Virus record (IMG/VR): IMGVR_UViG_3300018077_000004
Location: 1-36,783 of that record
Origin: a virus
Direction: 5' to 3' (one strand)
Length of the DNA stretch: 36,783 nt
In this document: in pieces, positions 1 to 36,783 of the stretch
How the letters are laid out: each line of letters begins with the position of its first letter
Numbering within the stretch: the first letter of the stretch is position 1
Program-made: the position numbers and the translations under genes
The notes under the pieces: model-generated
The model's database searches: none
What the model was told of the DNA's origin: nothing
Seen by the model: only the letters and a program-made list of their open reading frames with translations

Positions 1-111
1 ACGGTTCGGGCCGCCCTGCGTCTGCTGCGGGATGGCCCGACCTATACCCGCTCTGTCTCAACCGCCCTGACGCTGGACGGCGAGACTCTCCGCCGTCTGC
101 CGCCCCTATGA
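1..111 (+). CDS. 3' end of the zinc-ribbon/ribbon-helix-helix protein (continues from 36493)
   Basis: This is the last 36 codons and stop of the gene that starts at 36493 and is cut by the window end. It encodes the end of the second RHH helix and a C-terminal tail (ends TLRRLPPL). See the entry at 36493-36771 for the whole protein. Its TGA overlaps the ATG of the next gene at 108 (ATGA). Confidence 0.85.
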   Translation, partial: TVRAALRLLRDGPTYTRSVSTALTLDGETLRRLPPL

Positions 112-123
112 ACCGCGCCGCGC
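1..123. repeat. Terminal direct repeat, left copy
   Basis: Bases 1-123 are identical to bases 36661-36783. A perfect match that stops exactly at both window ends is the usual mark of a circular or terminally redundant molecule assembled as a linear contig. The repeat holds the 3' end of the RHH gene and the first codons of the next gene, so it is coding sequence and not a special terminus. It shows the genome is complete, with about 36,660 unique bases. Confidence 0.95.
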
Positions 124-4628: not shown

Positions 4629-5066
4629 ATGGCCGGTCGCGGTCCAGCCCCCAAACCGAAACGCCGAAACGCGTCTGACAAGCCGATTCGCGGTGAGTGG
4701 AAGCCCACCGCTATGACCGGCTGGCAGCACGGGAAACTCCCAGTTCCGCCCGATGGTCTGATGCCCGCTAGCGTCATAGCCTGGGACACATGGCTCAACG
4801 CATGGTGGGCTGCCCACTGGTCACCTGATGACGTGCCCGCTCTCCGCCAACTGATCCGTCTGTATGACCAGGTTGAGCGTGGGGAGTTCCAGCGTGCTAC
4901 TGAACTGCGGCTCGGCATGGACACCTACGGCATCAGCCCCAAGGGTCAGCAGGACCGCCGCTGGATCCGACCTGAACGCGAGGAGGCCGCGCCATCGTCA
5001 TCGCCACGCGGCAAGTCCCGCGCAAGCGCCGACCATTACGCCCATCTACGCGTGGTCAACGAGTAA
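4629..5066 (+). CDS. terS: Terminase small subunit
   Basis: 145 residues from ATG 4629 with AGGAGT upstream. The start AGRGPAPKPKRRNASD is characteristic of P27-like small terminase subunits. A helical middle (ALRQLIRLYDQVERGEFQRA) and a basic, Ser-rich C-terminus follow. The protein recognises phage DNA (cos) and regulates the large subunit during packaging. Its 3' end overlaps in another frame with the likely N-terminal extension of the large subunit (AGGAGG at 4981-4986). Confidence 0.85.
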   Translation: MAGRGPAPKPKRRNASDKPIRGEWKPTAMTGWQHGKLPVPPDGLMPASVIAWDTWLNAWWAAHWSPDDVPALRQLIRLYDQVERGEFQRATELRLGMDTYGISPKGQQDRRWIRPEREEAAPSSSPRGKSRASADHYAHLRVVNE

Positions 5067-5101
5067 GCCCTCCAAGCCTCGGCTGGACGGGCCTGCAATG
5101 G

Positions 5102-6619
5102 TTGGCGGCCTACCTGCCTTCGCCGACCGATGAGCGTGCCCCGCTCATTCTGACTGATGAGCAGGCTCGCTTCCTCATCGCGTGGTATACGCTCGACAAC
5201 CGCGGGTTCTTCCCGAACCGTCGGGGCCAGATCGAAATGGCCAAGGGTTGGGGGAAGTCTCCACTCGCGGGCTGGCTGTCCATCCTTGAGTTCGGAGGCC
5301 CAGTCTGCTTCGACGGTTGGGATGCCGACGGCGAACCCGTAGGCGTGCCCTGGGGCACGGGTGAACGCCCACCGCCGCTGGTACAGATCGCGGCCGTGTC
5401 TGAGGATCAGACCCACAACACCTACGGCGCCATCTTTCAGGCGCTGACTGCACGCAAGGGCACGGTAGCGGACAACATCGGGGTGGATCTGGGGCGCACC
5501 CGCCTCTATCTCAAGGACCGCCCCGGTGAACTGCATCCTGTCACCGCATCTGCCGGCTCACGGGAAGGCCAGCGCCTTACCTACGGCAACCTTGACGAGA
5601 CGCACTTGTGGAACCGGCAGAACGGCGGCGTGCGTCTGGCCGACACCATGCGGCGCAACGCCGCCAAGATGGGCGGTCGGACCCTCGAGACCACGAACGC
5701 GCCCATGCTGGGCGGGAAGTCGGTTGCCGAGCGCACGGGCCATGACGCTGACCGTGGCTTCGCGGGCATTCTCCGTCTCGTCCGCACGCCAAAGCCTGAA
5801 CCGCAGCCGGATTGGTCCGACGCGCAACTGCTTGAGGCGCTGGACTTCACCTACGGCGACGCCTACTGGATCGACCGCAAGCGCCTCCTGCATGAGATCC
5901 GCGACCCAGCGACGGATTGGGACGACGCCCTCCGGTTTTACTTCAACACCCGCGCTGCTGGCACTGGGCGGGCGGTCGACCCTCGCCGTTGGGACGAGTT
6001 GGCGAAGCCGATCGAGGTTCCGGCGGGAACTGAGATCGGTGCTGGCTTTGACGGCAGCGTCAGCCTGGACGAGACATGGCTGGTGGGCTGCACACGGCAG
6101 GGCTACAGCTTCAAGATCGGACGTTGGTTCCGCCCGGCCGGCTCCACGACGTGGACGGTCCCTCGCTCGGAGGTCATGGCCAAGGTCGAGTGGATGTTTG
6201 GCTACTACCGTGTCGGCCGGTTTCAGTTCGATCCGCCGAAATGGTGGACCGAAGGAGAGCAGTGGGTAACGGCCTGGCCCGAGATCGCCGTCGCGCTCGA
6301 TACGAACCAGCCCCGCCGCTTCGCGCCAGCCGTCGACCGATGGCTGGTGGGGATCCGCGAGGGCACCCACACCCACGACGGCGACCCAGACCTGGCAGAC
6401 CATGTAAAGGCGGCCCAGTTGCGAAAGGTCCACCTCAATGCTGCCGAGGATGACGGGCGCACCAAGTACGTCATCGTCAAGGGCGAGGACCGCCGCAAGT
6501 TTGACGGGGCGGTGGCCGATGTTCTGGCTTACGACGCCGCCATGGGGATGCCGGAATCCGTGCCCTTCCGCTCCGCCTACGAAGACGAGGGGCTCACCTT
6601 TCTAGGGCCTGCGAGGTAG
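5102..6619 (+). CDS. terL: Terminase large subunit
   Basis: 505 residues from TTG 5102. ATPase domain first: a Walker A-like AKGWGKSPLAG near residue 50 and a Walker B LDETH at about 164-168. The nuclease domain starts at GFDGSVSLDETW (about 315), with FDPPKWW and KFDGAVADVLAYDAA as later acidic motifs. It cuts concatemers and drives DNA into the prohead. The real start is probably upstream: the frame is open and reads PSLGWTGLQW before residue 1, as expected for this family. AGGAGG at 4981-4986 precedes an in-frame ATC at 4994, with no ATG/GTG/TTG in between until 5102. Confidence 0.93.
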   Translation: MAAYLPSPTDERAPLILTDEQARFLIAWYTLDNRGFFPNRRGQIEMAKGWGKSPLAGWLSILEFGGPVCFDGWDADGEPVGVPWGTGERPPPLVQIAAVSEDQTHNTYGAIFQALTARKGTVADNIGVDLGRTRLYLKDRPGELHPVTASAGSREGQRLTYGNLDETHLWNRQNGGVRLADTMRRNAAKMGGRTLETTNAPMLGGKSVAERTGHDADRGFAGILRLVRTPKPEPQPDWSDAQLLEALDFTYGDAYWIDRKRLLHEIRDPATDWDDALRFYFNTRAAGTGRAVDPRRWDELAKPIEVPAGTEIGAGFDGSVSLDETWLVGCTRQGYSFKIGRWFRPAGSTTWTVPRSEVMAKVEWMFGYYRVGRFQFDPPKWWTEGEQWVTAWPEIAVALDTNQPRRFAPAVDRWLVGIREGTHTHDGDPDLADHVKAAQLRKVHLNAAEDDGRTKYVIVKGEDRRKFDGAVADVLAYDAAMGMPESVPFRSAYEDEGLTFLGPAR

Positions 6620-6622
6620 CAC

Positions 6623-6808
6623 ATGACGCGTCTGCTCCGGGCTCTGCGGCGGATTGACGCCACCGATATCGCTCTCATGGGCGGCCTTGTTCTGCTGGGG
6701 TACGGCGTCGCCCAGTTCTCGCAGGCGTTGGCCGCCATCGTGGTCGGCGGGCTGGTGTTGCTGTACGGCGCCCTGCCGCTCCTGGCGACACTCCGGCGGC
6801 CCCGCTGA
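6623..6808 (+). CDS. Small two-pass membrane protein
   Basis: 61 residues with two hydrophobic segments (IALMGGLVLLGYGVAQF and ALAAIVVGGLVLLYGALPLLA) and basic ends (TRLLRALRR, TLRRPR). It lies between large terminase and portal, and its stop overlaps the portal start (TGATG). Similar tiny membrane proteins occur at this place in other siphoviruses, with unknown role. Confidence 0.7.
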   Translation: MTRLLRALRRIDATDIALMGGLVLLGYGVAQFSQALAAIVVGGLVLLYGALPLLATLRRPR

Positions 6809-9765: not shown

Positions 9766-10998
9766 ATGGCTACCTCTGCCGAAATCGGCCAGAAGCTGAC
9801 TGACAAGCGTCAGGAGCACGGCGTCTGGCTGGCCCAATACAAGAAGGACGGCGGCTACGACATGCCGACCGATCAGGTGGTCGAGTTCAACACTCGGAAC
9901 GAAGAGCTGACCAAGCTCCAGGCCGAGTACGAGACCGCTCTGAAGGTCGAGAAGTCAGCCGCCGAGAATGAGGCGAAGCTCGGTCCCCAGGGCCGGCTCG
10001 TCAAGGATGCCGACGACCCCGAGACTAAGGACGTGCCCGCCGGCATCTCGACCAAGGCGCAGCTCAATGCTGCGTTCAAGTCGGCGTTTGAGAAGAATGC
10101 GTCTGCTCTTGACGCGATTGCCAAGGGTGGCCGCGGCTCGGTCAGCTTCGACCTGAACATGAGCCTGAAGACTCTGCTCGACACCACTGTCCATGCCCCG
10201 CAGGCGGACCGACTGGGAACCTTCCCATCGGCGCTCTACTACGGGAGCGTGGAAGACCTGTTCATGCATGGCGTCACCGACTCGAAGTCGGTGGACTACT
10301 TCATCCAGACGACCGACACCGACAACGCGGCCGCTGTGGCGGAAGGAGTTGCCCCCACCGATTCGGCGTTCGCCTGGACGCTGACGACCGATCCGGTTGA
10401 GACCGTCTCGACCTGGATTCCGATGACTCACGAGTCGGTGGCCGACAATCCTGGACTCCAGTCCACGGTTGAGGGCATGCTGGCGCTTCGGCTTCAGAAG
10501 AAGTCCGAGAACACAATGCTGGCCGGCAGCGGTGTAACCCCGATCCCGACCGGCGTGTTCATTCGGACCGGCTTTCAGACTCAGGCCAAGGGTGCCGACC
10601 CGGCCTTCGACGCCATCCACAAGGCCATCACCAAGGTGGAGGTCACCGGCGATGCGATCGTCGATGCCGTCACAATCCACCCGACCGACTGGCAGAATCT
10701 GAGGCTGACCCGGACGACCGATGGCGTCTACATTCTCGGCAATCCCGCCGATTCGGCACCGCTGAATCTATGGGGTTTGCCGGTGCGAAAGACGACCGGC
10801 ATCGGTGCCGCCGGCACTGCGGGTGTTGGTGCGTTCCGCACCTTCGCTGAGATCCGCGAGCGCGAAGGCCTGGTGGTCGAAATCTCCACCGAGCATTCGA
10901 CCTTCTTCACCGAGCGCAAGGTCGCGCTTCTGCTGTATCGGCGCTTCGCGGTGGCTGACTATCGGCCCAGCGCGTTCGCGACGATCACCGGCCTGTAA
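9766..10998 (+). CDS. Major capsid protein, HK97 fold
   Basis: 410 residues. The N-terminal about 100 residues are charged coiled coil (delta domain: IGQKLTDKRQEHGVW, EELTKLQAEYETALKVEKS) that is normally removed by the protease. The mature part has the usual P22/HK97 landmarks: GSVEDLFMHGVTDSKSVDY, VAEGVAPTDSAF, ESVADNPGLQSTVEGML, LAGSGVTPIPTG, and the C-terminal HSTFFTERKVALLLYRRFAVADYRPSAF. It builds the icosahedral shell. The RBS (GGAG) and ATG 9766 are clear. No separate scaffold gene is seen. Confidence 0.95.
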   Translation: MATSAEIGQKLTDKRQEHGVWLAQYKKDGGYDMPTDQVVEFNTRNEELTKLQAEYETALKVEKSAAENEAKLGPQGRLVKDADDPETKDVPAGISTKAQLNAAFKSAFEKNASALDAIAKGGRGSVSFDLNMSLKTLLDTTVHAPQADRLGTFPSALYYGSVEDLFMHGVTDSKSVDYFIQTTDTDNAAAVAEGVAPTDSAFAWTLTTDPVETVSTWIPMTHESVADNPGLQSTVEGMLALRLQKKSENTMLAGSGVTPIPTGVFIRTGFQTQAKGADPAFDAIHKAITKVEVTGDAIVDAVTIHPTDWQNLRLTRTTDGVYILGNPADSAPLNLWGLPVRKTTGIGAAGTAGVGAFRTFAEIREREGLVVEISTEHSTFFTERKVALLLYRRFAVADYRPSAFATITGL

Positions 10999-32229: not shown

Positions 32230-32828
32230 CGCCTTACTACCAGGACGACGCGGTGACGATCTACCACGGTGACTGCCGGGAGTGGATGCCCGAGGCTGAG
32301 ATCATCGTCACCGACCCGCCCTACGGTATCGGTAAGGCTCCGTGGGACTCCGAGTTCATGCTACCGCCGATTCCCCCATCAGCGCGGGCACTCTGCCTCA
32401 TGCCCGGCGTCTGGAACATCGGGAACTCACCCCAGCAGATTTGGCATCTCACCTACCGCTGGACGCTGGCGGCGCGACTTATCAACGGCATGACCAACGG
32501 GGCAGGTGGCTTCGGTAATTGGATACCGGCGCTGCTCTATTCCGCGACCGGAGTCAGCGTGTATACGCAGGACGGCGACTGCAAGGAGTTCGTGGTAGGC
32601 CGTGAGGCGAAGCCAGACCACCCCAGCCCGAAGCCCCTTGCCCCTGTCCGCTGGTTCGTTCAGCGATGCCCTGACGGCATGATCCTCGATCCCTTTATGG
32701 GTAGCGGGACCACCCTCGTCGCCGCCAAATCGCTGAACCGCCGAGCCATCGGCATCGAGATCGAAGAACGCTACTGCGAGATCGCCGCACTCCGCTGCTC
32801 TCAGGAAGTGCTGGGGCTGGTCGGATGA
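32226..32828 (+). CDS. DNA methyltransferase, N4/N6 type, beta class
   Basis: 200 residues. Motif IV TDPPYGIG (D30-Y33) precedes motif I DPFMGSGTTLVAA (D155), which is the beta-class order, and GIEIEERYCEIA follows. The short middle (HPSPKPLAPVRWFVQ) is typical of small phage enzymes. It methylates adenine or cytosine in DNA with S-adenosylmethionine; which base is not visible. It may protect phage DNA from host restriction. No restriction enzyme gene is nearby, so it is an orphan. Confidence 0.9.
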   Translation: MTPYYQDDAVTIYHGDCREWMPEAEIIVTDPPYGIGKAPWDSEFMLPPIPPSARALCLMPGVWNIGNSPQQIWHLTYRWTLAARLINGMTNGAGGFGNWIPALLYSATGVSVYTQDGDCKEFVVGREAKPDHPSPKPLAPVRWFVQRCPDGMILDPFMGSGTTLVAAKSLNRRAIGIEIEERYCEIAALRCSQEVLGLVG

Positions 32829-33214
32829 CCGCCCCCCTCCTGACCGCCCGTGACGTCGGCGAGATCCTCCACCTTCACGTCAACACGGTGAAGCGATTGG
32901 TCCTGCGCGGCGAGCTGGCCTGCTACCGCTTTGGCACCCGCGGCGACCTGCGATTCTCGATGGACGACGTGGACGCCTACCTCCTACGATCACGGAATGA
33001 GGCGACAGATGGGAACCGGGTCGGTGTATCAGGAGCGGGGCAAGTGGGTGGCGCAGGTGTCGATCGGCCCGCGGAGCCAGCGGCGGTTCGTGCGAAGGAC
33101 ACGGGCAACAAGGCGCGACGCCCTCGCCGCGCTCACCGAGCTAAGAAACTCATCATCGATGCAGCCCTCGTCGCGGCTGACACTTGGGGTTTACCTCACA
33201 AGGTGGGTTTCTGA
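32825..33214 (+). CDS. Excisionase-like MerR/HTH_17 protein with extended 3' overlap
   Basis: 129 residues from ATG 32825. Residues 1-55 are a MerR-type/excisionase HTH domain: LLTARDVGEILHLHVNTVKR and ELACYRFGTRGDLRFS. The rest lies in the start of the integrase gene in another frame and is Arg/Ala-rich with no domain. The frame stays open for 200 bases inside the integrase gene. As it precedes the integrase it may be the directionality factor (Xis). The true end may be earlier if a frameshift exists. Confidence 0.7.
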   Translation: MTAPLLTARDVGEILHLHVNTVKRLVLRGELACYRFGTRGDLRFSMDDVDAYLLRSRNEATDGNRVGVSGAGQVGGAGVDRPAEPAAVRAKDTGNKARRPRRAHRAKKLIIDAALVAADTWGLPHKVGF

Positions 33215-34271
33215 CGTGCGCAACCTCCGGCCCGCCACCCGCCACGCCTACGCCAACGCCATCCGCTACCACCTGGCGCCGACCATTGGCGAGATCCGGC
33301 TGAGCGAGCTCAACCCGATCTATGTCGAGCACATGCTGTCGGTCGTTGGGGAGCGAGTCGGCCCGAAGACGCTCCGCAACGTCCACGCCGTCCTGCGGAG
33401 GGCATTGGCGATGGCCGTCCGTGCTGGCTTGGTGACGCGCAACGTGGCGGCCCGCGAGTTCGTCGACGCTCCTCGAGTACCCGCTCAGGAGCCACGGGCT
33501 CTGTCGGGTGACGAGGTACGCCGGCTGCTCGCCGCCTGTAAGGGCGATCGCCTCGAGGCGCTGTTCATCACCGCCGTCGCCACCGGGCTGCGCCAAGGCG
33601 AGCTGCTGGGGCTAGCGTGGGAAGACTTGGAGTTTGGAGAAGACCATGAGCGAGCTAAGTCCCGAGGAACGGTACGGGCTGAGTCGGGACGCGATGGGGT
33701 TGGAGTGCGACCATCCACTGAGATTCCGGCGCCCGCTACCCAGCCAGAAGGACAGACCCTTCGAGGCGAAGTCTCTGGACCCGAGCGAGTGGGAGTGCGG
33801 CGTCTGTCTGATCTGGCAACTCAACCGCGACTGAGCGTCCGCCGCGAACTCGTCCACCTCAACGGCCGCTACCAGCGGGTCGAGCTGAAGACGCCGCAGT
33901 CGCGCCGCGCCGTGCCGCTGACGCCATCCGTTGTCGATGCCTTGCGGGCGCACCGCGAGCGGGTCATCGCCGCCGGCTTCGTGCCGACGGCGACCGGCCC
34001 GGTGTTCACCACGCCGAAGGGCACCGCACTCAGCGGGAGCTGGCTGACCCACAGGTTCTATCGGCTCTGTGACGCGGCCGGGATCCCGCGGCTGGCGTTC
34101 CACCGGCTGCGGGCGACGTATGCGTCGCGGCTGGCGGAGGCTGGGGTGTCGGAGATGCACGTGGCTCGATTACTAGGACACGCCCGCACGTACACCAGCA
34201 AGCAGCACTATATCGCCCTGAACGACGTTCCCCAAGTTGCCTTGGATAGCATCGAGGAGATGCTCGGATGA
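33009..34271 (+). CDS. int: Tyrosine recombinase (integrase)
   Basis: 420 residues from ATG 33009 with GAGG 6 bases upstream (ATG 32997 is also possible). N-terminal arm-binding domain (GSVYQERGKWVAQVSIGP), SAM-like core-binding domain (RPATRHAYANAIRYHLAP), then catalytic residues R195 (GLRQGE), H365/R368 (HRLRATY), H391 (LGHARTY) and nucleophile Y401 (KQHYIAL). Relative to the usual domain, residues about 210-274 are extra. This stretch is the other-frame reading of a nested small gene (33646-33834). It integrates the phage at a tRNA-Arg gene (attP at 36144). Confidence 0.92.
   Translation: MGTGSVYQERGKWVAQVSIGPRSQRRFVRRTRATRRDALAALTELRNSSSMQPSSRLTLGVYLTRWVSDVRNLRPATRHAYANAIRYHLAPTIGEIRLSELNPIYVEHMLSVVGERVGPKTLRNVHAVLRRALAMAVRAGLVTRNVAAREFVDAPRVPAQEPRALSGDEVRRLLAACKGDRLEALFITAVATGLRQGELLGLAWEDLEFGEDHERAKSRGTVRAESGRDGVGVRPSTEIPAPATQPEGQTLRGEVSGPERVGVRRLSDLATQPRLSVRRELVHLNGRYQRVELKTPQSRRAVPLTPSVVDALRAHRERVIAAGFVPTATGPVFTTPKGTALSGSWLTHRFYRLCDAAGIPRLAFHRLRATYASRLAEAGVSEMHVARLLGHARTYTSKQHYIALNDVPQVALDSIEEMLG
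33646..33834 (+). CDS. Nested zinc-finger gene inside the integrase gene
   Basis: 62 residues from ATG 33646 with GGAG at 33636-33639 six bases upstream (a TTG at 33634 also opens the frame). It lies in the +1 frame of the integrase, within the 195-bp extra segment. SELSPEERYGLSRDAMG, then ECDHPLRF and WECGVCLIWQLN give a C-x-H...C-x2-C zinc-finger. The gene fills the segment that the integrase family lacks, so it was probably inserted into the integrase gene with the reading frame kept open. Expression is not shown. Confidence 0.55.
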   Translation: MSELSPEERYGLSRDAMGLECDHPLRFRRPLPSQKDRPFEAKSLDPSEWECGVCLIWQLNRD

Positions 34272-34501
34272 CCAACGAGATTGGGTGCGTCTGGTGCGGC
34301 TATGAAGGGCAAGCGCCAGACGACTGGTGGCACGTCCCGCTCACTCAGAATATCGGTCTGGGTGGCGTAACCGCCGAGGACCGTATCTGTGATCTCTGCT
34401 GGTCAACGCTCTCGAATACTCCGGGGGGCGCTGGAGACACCATTCGGTCCATGAACTACGTCGGCAATCGCATCCTCGAAGCGCTGCGGGCCGACCGATG
34501 A
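34268..34501 (+). CDS. Small zinc-ribbon protein
   Basis: 77 residues from ATG 34268 (overlaps the integrase stop, ATGA). CVWCGYEGQAPDDWWH and RICDLCWSTL form a zinc ribbon with four Cys. Unknown role; part of the coupled operon. Confidence 0.6.
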   Translation: MTNEIGCVWCGYEGQAPDDWWHVPLTQNIGLGGVTAEDRICDLCWSTLSNTPGGAGDTIRSMNYVGNRILEALRADR

Positions 34502-34539
34502 CCGGCCCCTCCTTCCTCGAAGCGATGGTGTCGGGATGA
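34498..34539 (+). CDS. 13-residue micro-ORF (coupling step)
   Basis: ATG 34498 overlaps the previous stop and the stop overlaps ATG 34536. The peptide is TGPSFLEAMVSG. Like the micro-ORFs at 30350 and 36440 it exactly bridges a gap with 4-base overlaps. It may serve only for translational coupling. Confidence 0.35.
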   Translation: MTGPSFLEAMVSG

Positions 34540-35919: not shown

Positions 35920-36129
35920 GTGAGCGTTGAATGGCAGTGCGGCTGGTGCGGCCGGATCGGCTCAGACGAGGAAGCCGTCAGTTCGCAGCATCCGCACCGC
36001 CCAATGACCACCGAGGGCGACTACGAACTAACCGACCAAGGAAGCGCGCCTTCCCCGAAACTCAACGTGTCACCAACGGGTCACCGGAGTTGTGACGTGG
36101 AGTGTCCAGAAGGTGACTCCTGTGCGTAG
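35920..36129 (+). CDS. Small Cys-containing protein, ends in attP left arm
   Basis: 69 residues from GTG 35920 (GAGG five bases upstream). SVEWQCGWCGRIGSDEEAVS has a zinc-type Cys pair. The C-terminal part (SPTGHRSCDVECPEGDSC) is translated from the left attP arm region. It may therefore be an acquired tail, and the gene might be altered when the phage integrates. Confidence 0.5.
   Translation: MSVEWQCGWCGRIGSDEEAVSSQHPHRPMTTEGDYELTDQGSAPSPKLNVSPTGHRSCDVECPEGDSCA
36064..36085. repeat. attP left arm: two 11-bp integrase arm-type motifs
   Basis: AACGTGTCACC at 36064-36074 and AACGGGTCACC at 36075-36085 are direct tandem copies with one mismatch. The same motif (AACGNGTCACS) appears twice on the other side of the core. 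Repeats of this kind bind the N-terminal arm domain of tyrosine integrases. 58 bases separate them from the core. Confidence 0.7.
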
Positions 36130-36143
36130 TTGTGCTCACGAGA

Positions 36144-36193
36144 TGGCGCGCCGGGCAGGATTCGAACCCGCGGCCTGGTGGTCCGAAGCCATC
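36144..36193 (-). other. attP core: 3' half of a tRNA-Arg (anticodon TCG)
   Basis: Read on the minus strand, 36193-36144 is the 3' half of a tRNA: anticodon stem GATGG, loop CTTCGGA (anticodon TCG), stem CCACC, variable AGGCC, T-stem GCGGG with loop TTCGAAT and CCTGC, acceptor CCGGCGC, G and CCA. No D-arm or 5' half is present, so it is not a complete tRNA gene. Such a half tRNA is the usual attP core for tyrosine integrases and restores the host tRNA after integration. Host site: a tRNA-Arg(TCG) gene. Confidence 0.85.
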
Positions 36194-36218
36194 TGCTTCC
36201 GTGCTTAGAATAGGGGTG

Positions 36219-36241
36219 AACGTGTCACGTAACGAGTCACG
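36219..36241. repeat. attP right arm: two 11-bp integrase arm-type motifs
   Basis: AACGTGTCACG at 36219-36229 and AACGAGTCACG at 36231-36241 match the left-arm motif in orientation and sequence with one base between copies. Together with the left arm, the four sites frame the tRNA core, which fits a typical attP with P and P' arms. The start of the next gene (36252) follows directly. Confidence 0.7.
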
Positions 36242-36251
36242 GGTGACGGGG

Positions 36252-36443: not shown

Positions 36444-36496
36444 ACGCCCGCGCTCTCTCCCTCTGGCAAGCCTCGCTGGAGGCCGAGACGCAGTGA
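36440..36496 (+). CDS. 18-residue micro-ORF, duplicate of the N-terminus of the 108 gene
   Basis: ATG 36440 overlaps the previous stop; its stop overlaps GTG 36493. The peptide MNARALSLWQASLEAETQ differs from the first 17 residues of the protein at 108 (MNRAALSLWQASLEAET) in only two places. On the circular genome it lies just upstream of the RHH gene that precedes the 108 gene. It looks like a duplicated gene start left after insertion of the RHH gene, or a leader peptide. Confidence 0.45.
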   Translation: MNARALSLWQASLEAETQ

Positions 36497-36771
36497 GCGA
36501 TCCGCTTGTATGTCCCCTCTGTGGGGAAGACCATCACGTCGAACTCGGCGAGGAGGTCCGAAACATCGCGCCTAAACCAACCGGCGCAGTGGTATGCGTT
36601 CGATTGCCCTACGACCTCTTGTCTGTTGTGTCATCAGGTAAGTACGGGACCATGAGCGAGACGGTTCGGGCCGCCCTGCGTCTGCTGCGGGATGGCCCGA
36701 CCTATACCCGCTCTGTCTCAACCGCCCTGACGCTGGACGGCGAGACTCTCCGCCGTCTGCCGCCCCTATGA
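36493..36771 (+). CDS. Zinc-ribbon/ribbon-helix-helix DNA-binding protein (cut by the window ends)
   Basis: 92 residues from GTG 36493 (GTGA overlap). An N-terminal CPLCGEDHH zinc knuckle, then a ribbon-helix-helix core at about 34-66: VVCVRLPYDLLSVVSSGK (strand and first helix) and MSETVRAALRLLRDG (second helix). RHH proteins bind DNA as dimers through the strand. The Cys/His part may add a second binding site. It may regulate the end of the early operon. The window ends repeat its 3' part at 1-111. Confidence 0.75.
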   Translation: MSDPLVCPLCGEDHHVELGEEVRNIAPKPTGAVVCVRLPYDLLSVVSSGKYGTMSETVRAALRLLRDGPTYTRSVSTALTLDGETLRRLPPL

Positions 36772-36783
36772 ACCGCGCCGCGC
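36661..36783. repeat. Terminal direct repeat, right copy
   Basis: Identical to bases 1-123. See the left copy. The unique genome is 36,660 bp when one copy is removed. Confidence 0.95.

Follow-up and report, generated by a model that had tools for sequence, protein, structure and literature searches.

In the attP of phage lambda, a core is accompanied on both sides by distal arm sites that are bound by one bivalent integrase, and in the tyrosine integrases that target tRNA genes the anticodon loop is a usual place of strand exchange. A closely comparable design has been described in the cluster J mycobacteriophages (Omega, BAKA), whose attP lies 3' of the tyrosine integrase gene and whose common-core boundary at the anticodon loop is the same as that described below (PMC3706429). 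They further share with the present site a common core, of 44 bp, that ends in the tRNA anticodon loop, and two pairs of 10-bp direct repeats, P1-P2 and P3-P4, one on each side (PMC3706429). Among the cluster K phages, CrimD likewise has 11-bp arm sites that surround its core as two pairs (PMC3203893). The site at positions 36064-36241 of the window (the whole stretch of viral DNA analysed here, 36,783 bp long) belongs with these systems in that repeated putative arm-type sites flank a tRNA-derived core on both sides as two tandem pairs (Table 1).

Table 1. Features of the window that bear on the reading of the attachment site
Feature	Position	Strand	Remarks
Direct terminal repeat, 123 bp	1..123 = 36661-36783	.	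contig circularises
HTH_17 protein, candidate excisionase/directionality factor	32825..33214	+	PF12728, 1.2e-9; overlaps integrase start
Tyrosine integrase, 424 aa	32997..34271 (start probably 32997)	+	catalytic R199 K298 H369 R372 H395 Y405 complete
In-frame extra ~61 codons in integrase catalytic domain	33643..33833	+	contains overlapping 62-aa ORF (33646-33834) in another frame
Small cargo ORFs between integrase and attP, a block found in this phage only	34272..36063	+	attP flanks non-homologous to L006 (blastn)
Putative arm-type site P1 (AACGTGTCACC)	36064..36074	+	exact AACGNGTCACS match, conserved in relatives
Putative arm-type site P2 (AACGGGTCACC)	36075..36085	+	in tandem with P1 at 11 bp
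attP common core, 3' part of tRNA-Arg(TCG) including CCA	36139..36191	-	53-bp exact identity to G167 attB
Inverted core-type half-site CCTGGTGG	36174-36181		adjoins overlap region
Probable 7-bp overlap (strand-exchange) region	36182..36188	.	anticodon loop, CTTCGGA on minus strand; predicted
Inverted core-type half-site CCATCTGC	36189-36196		adjoins overlap region on the other side
Putative arm-type site P'1 (AACGTGTCACG)	36219..36229	+	offset +71 from 36148, as in L006 and L005
Putative arm-type site P'2 (AACGAGTCACG)	36231..36241	+	in tandem with P'1 at 12 bp; +83 in L006 and L005 too

A preliminary description had read this site as a complete attP, in which two tandem copies of AACGNGTCACS on the left and two on the right surround a core running, on the minus strand, from the anticodon arm of a tRNA-Arg(TCG) to its CCA. 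The four copies proved to lie where it had placed them: the motif has four matches in the 36,783 bp, all on the plus strand and all inside 36064-36241, against a mean of 0.21 and a maximum of 2 in shuffled sequence. The core, which comprises the anticodon stem and loop through the encoded CCA, is a half gene, because neither ARAGORN nor Rfam detects a whole tRNA at this place in the window. Its tRNA identity was borne out by a real tRNA-Arg(TCG) gene in genome G167 (L053) that is identical to window 36139-36191 over 53 bp, and by another in the Chloroflexi MAG nzgw189 (G004; L008/L054) identical to 36143-36191 over 49 bp. A scan of GTDB returned the exact core in only one genome contig, L008, inside a complete tRNA-Arg(TCG) gene; among 177 genomes of the class to which nzgw189 belongs, G167 was the second exact match, with one further genome at one mismatch and nine at three. 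ARAGORN finds an intact tRNA-Arg(TCG) at every matching locus save one (L044), which is truncated. The attB that had been predicted in a host tRNA-Arg gene is thus represented by exact matches to intact genes in two genomes. The identity of attP and attB ends at 36191, three bases 5' of the anticodon loop, and strand exchange probably takes place within the overlap of about 7 bp at that loop, as judged from the sequence.

Beyond the window, the 44-bp core was found in only three other IMG/VR contigs, every one of them with arm motifs. Two of these phages also have an integrase of the window's subfamily: L006 (the same as L002), the nearest relative of the window, with motif offsets identical to those of the window (-84/-73/+71/+83), and L005, with offsets of -73/-62/+71/+83, its left pair being shifted by 11 bp, or about one helical turn. 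The third (L004/L007) has the same core with the motifs re-oriented as two palindromic pairs at -131 and +85. Between the window and L006, an island of 183 bp containing the attP (36063-36245) is 95.6% identical by blastn, with non-homologous flanks on both sides. Non-conservation of the motifs in related phages had been named as grounds for rejecting the attP; they recur around the same core, in palindromic form in one case. The possibility of a chance resemblance to a tRNA 3' end accompanied by coincidental repeats is so slight as to be negligible, being refuted by the 53-bp exact identity, the motif excess and the conservation in independent phages, with nothing in its favour.

In L004 (contig 3300044775_000008), the integrase has been cut down to its last 42 codons, which are fused to a DNA methylase ORF (5001-5126), and the 23-kb contig holds no further integrase although the attP with palindromic arm pairs has been retained. 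A scan for the arm pair alone recovered an attP in L059, where two AACGCGTCAC pairs, the second copy being imperfect on one side, surround the 3' half of a tRNA-Pro(GGG); this phage has its own integrase beside the pairs, which differs from that of the window (27-40% identity in local matches). In L084, whose integrase is 43% identical, GTGACTGTC pairs flank a 3' half resembling tRNA-Arg(GCG). The arm-pair scan also returned L063, which has the overlap and the right-hand arms only: here a half attP (10895-10965), whose homology to the window starts at about 36176, beside the predicted overlap, abuts unrelated phage sequence close to the predicted crossover and may have arisen when the integrase recombined DNA at a secondary site. 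Six other arm-pair matches (L056, L057, L058, L060, L061 and L062) were set aside as att sites, because tblastn gave no integrase relative and the stretches read contain no tRNA, and the palindromic-pair matches L064-L070 likewise lacked an integrase relative or tRNA. A sequence of 42 bp with the micro-ORF MTGPSFLEAMVSG is identical at window 34498-34539, L063 9737-9778 and L007 1666-1707; its surroundings differ among these three phages, and no other viral contig has it.

The direct terminal repeat of 123 bp makes it very probable that the window, which has terminase, portal, major head, tape-measure, Erf-like and integrase genes, is the whole of a circularising phage genome and that the site lies within it as an attP instead of marking the end of a prophage. 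The preliminary description had placed the integrase about 2 kb away and contrasted this with the common adjacent arrangement. The distance stands, at 1.79 kb from the integrase end to the left motif pair, but it does not amount to a different design: the gap is about 230 bp in L002 and shrinks to a few bp in L084, while the left arms of L005 overlap the end of the integrase gene. Because the relatives thus have an attP adjoining the integrase, the separation in the window is a lineage-specific cargo insertion of 1.8 kb into the same design. On the far side, a ParD-like antitoxin ORF (36493-36771) adjoins the attP and extends up to the point where the circle closes onto the first position of the window.

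The terminase region of the window has relatives in genomes of the class containing nzgw189 and G167, and the phage most likely infects Chloroflexota bacteria of that class. A candidate CRISPR-spacer link to G167, a 30-bp match to window 6724-6754, was discarded, as it lies outside any repeat array. The arm pair was absent from 400 Chloroflexota genomes. The search of bacterial genomes proposed in the preliminary description succeeded as to identical tRNA-Arg(TCG) 3' halves and failed as to a prophage ending in one: no tRNA-Arg(TCG) among the genomes searched is occupied by a prophage, which in so sparse a collection is weak evidence.

This failure to find an occupied gene might be taken to mean that the tRNA half is a decayed leftover of a past integration and that the phage no longer integrates there, a reading also favoured by the loss of nearly all of the integrase in L004 and by the insert of 61 codons in the integrase of the window. 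Against it, the core is intact and conserved, as are all four arms, no catalytic residue is missing, and the two halves of the integrase flanking the insert are under purifying selection (dN/dS of 0.12 and 0.26 when the window is compared with L002, each having an insert); such decay is thus highly improbable.

The integrase itself matches PF00589 (1.2e-20), and its overlap with the upstream HTH_17 gene recurs in L005. Its N-terminus matches none of the Pfam arm-binding models; the predicted N-domain consists of strands at residues 7-13, 16-23 and 29-35 and a helix at 39-54, a block with a pLDDT of about 55-78 in a model whose mean of 48 is too poor for a fold search. A Pfam toxin-domain match in the protein was taken as chance, since it falls far under the cut-off and overlaps the core-binding domain. 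The insert lies just ahead of the first strand of the catalytic sheet; in L005, in L084 and in the relatives from the bacterial class, a stretch of 13-19 residues takes its place. The 62-aa ORF within the insert, which has no homologues among viral contigs or phages, is preceded by its own ribosome-binding-like site. At the same position L002 has 73 extra codons (5700-5935), made up mostly of two complete tRNA-Ser genes (GCT and CGA, both with an encoded CCA) that have no near-identical copies in the putative host sequence; no other integrase among more than 70 relatives has an insert here. The reading frame is open through both inserts, for which shuffled inserts give a chance of about 0.08 and 0.065. 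A limited search of the literature found no report of nested genes within int. It is a tentative and rather unlikely proposal that the window integrase comes from a lineage whose int gene became a landing place for nested genes; if the tRNAs are processed from the int mRNA, their production would destroy the integrase message and thereby link the supply of tRNA to the switching-off of integration.

The layout can further be placed among 70 relatives of the integrase from the same bacterial class (L013-L042 and L085-L124), which are about 29-46% identical over the best segment. A tRNA gene within 700 bp with its 3' end toward the integrase accompanies 36 of these 70, the genes involved being those for Lys, Cys, Asn, Pro, Thr, Leu, Ile, Ser, Arg, Met, Tyr and Glu. 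A tandem repeat with a period of 10-13 (p<=0.05 against dinucleotide shuffles) lies between the tRNA and the integrase at 29 of these 36 loci, as against 10 of 128 control stretches. At loci with the 3' end of int toward the tRNA, most repeats begin 74-84 bp from the end of the tRNA gene, and in the window, which has the same orientation, P1 starts 80 bp from it. Integration of relatives elsewhere had been named as a finding that would count against the attP; the distant relatives do use other tRNA genes, and they do so with the same geometry, as expected for such integrases. The repeat sequence varies from one integrase to another (GGTAGCAAC, GGCAGCTTCG and GTGGCTACAGT, among others), and a single arm type is used with several tRNAs (Ile, Cys, Leu, Tyr), so that arm and core specificity look modular. 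Arm similarity correlates with similarity of the integrase N-terminal domain (r 0.57; partial 0.245 given the rest of Int, a value reached in 0 of 2000 permutations) across loci that are not independent, some being near-duplicates, and with relatedness only partly controlled; the correlation is a lead from sequence comparison rather than a proof. The co-variation of the arm repeat with the N-domain, apparently independent of the tRNA target, offers a data set for an arm-recognition code.

These observations also bear on the reading of the site as an attP in which the HTH_17 excisionase candidate or a repressor, instead of the integrase N-domain, binds the AACGNGTCAC pairs. The HTH_17 gene overlaps the start of int, the palindromic sites in L004 would suit a dimeric regulator, and binding of the pairs by the integrase is itself a prediction. 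However, the core has pairs to its left and to its right, as is typical of arm sites, whereas an excisionase normally binds one side only, and the repeat sequence tracks the integrase N-domain across the relatives, so that this assignment appears quite improbable.

Taken together, 36064-36241 is with high confidence the attP of a temperate tailed phage that targets tRNA-Arg(TCG), most likely in a Chloroflexota host, with the arms predicted to be bound by the N-domain of its integrase. From the sequence and its conservation, the attB genes and the family geometry, we infer protein binding, crossover and integration as follows. The integrase N-terminal domain would bind both tandem pairs of arm sites, and the core-binding and catalytic domains would contact the inverted half-sites around the anticodon loop, where strands would be exchanged with the host tRNA-Arg(TCG) gene within the overlap. 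The phage core would restore the tRNA 3' half including the CCA, leaving the host with a working tRNA. One predicted junction would then consist of host DNA downstream of tRNA-Arg(TCG), followed by the tRNA 3' half and CCATCTGCTTCCGTGC, and the other of AACGGGTCACC and the core joined to the tRNA 5' half.

The site indicates which group probably hosts this uncultured phage, and it allows the place of integration to be predicted to the base. Across dozens of prophages, this integrase family keeps the spacing within arm pairs and their distance from the tRNA, while arm sequence and tRNA target change independently, and the relation of arm sequence to N-domain is thereby directly testable. Candidate integrases and attB sites are also made available for a bacterial class represented here chiefly by environmental genomes.

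Compared with the described systems, the site is supported as a tyrosine-integrase attP of the ordinary L5/cluster J/K design, from a host group absent from the papers found. It differs from cluster J in that those phages target a mycobacterial tRNA-Leu and have the arm consensus TGCATAC, with a core about 100 bp from int, versus 1.8 kb in the window (PMC3706429). A parallel might also be struck with cluster K, where close integrases differ in arm sequence and the orientation of the pairs varies between phages, as in L004; the targets there are a tmRNA (T-psi-C) or a tRNA-Lys, and Pixie has six arm sites (PMC3203893). The Pixie-type integrase is only about 29% identical to that of the window. 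The attB of lambda is not a tRNA gene, and the window site is nearer to the design of L5 and cluster J.
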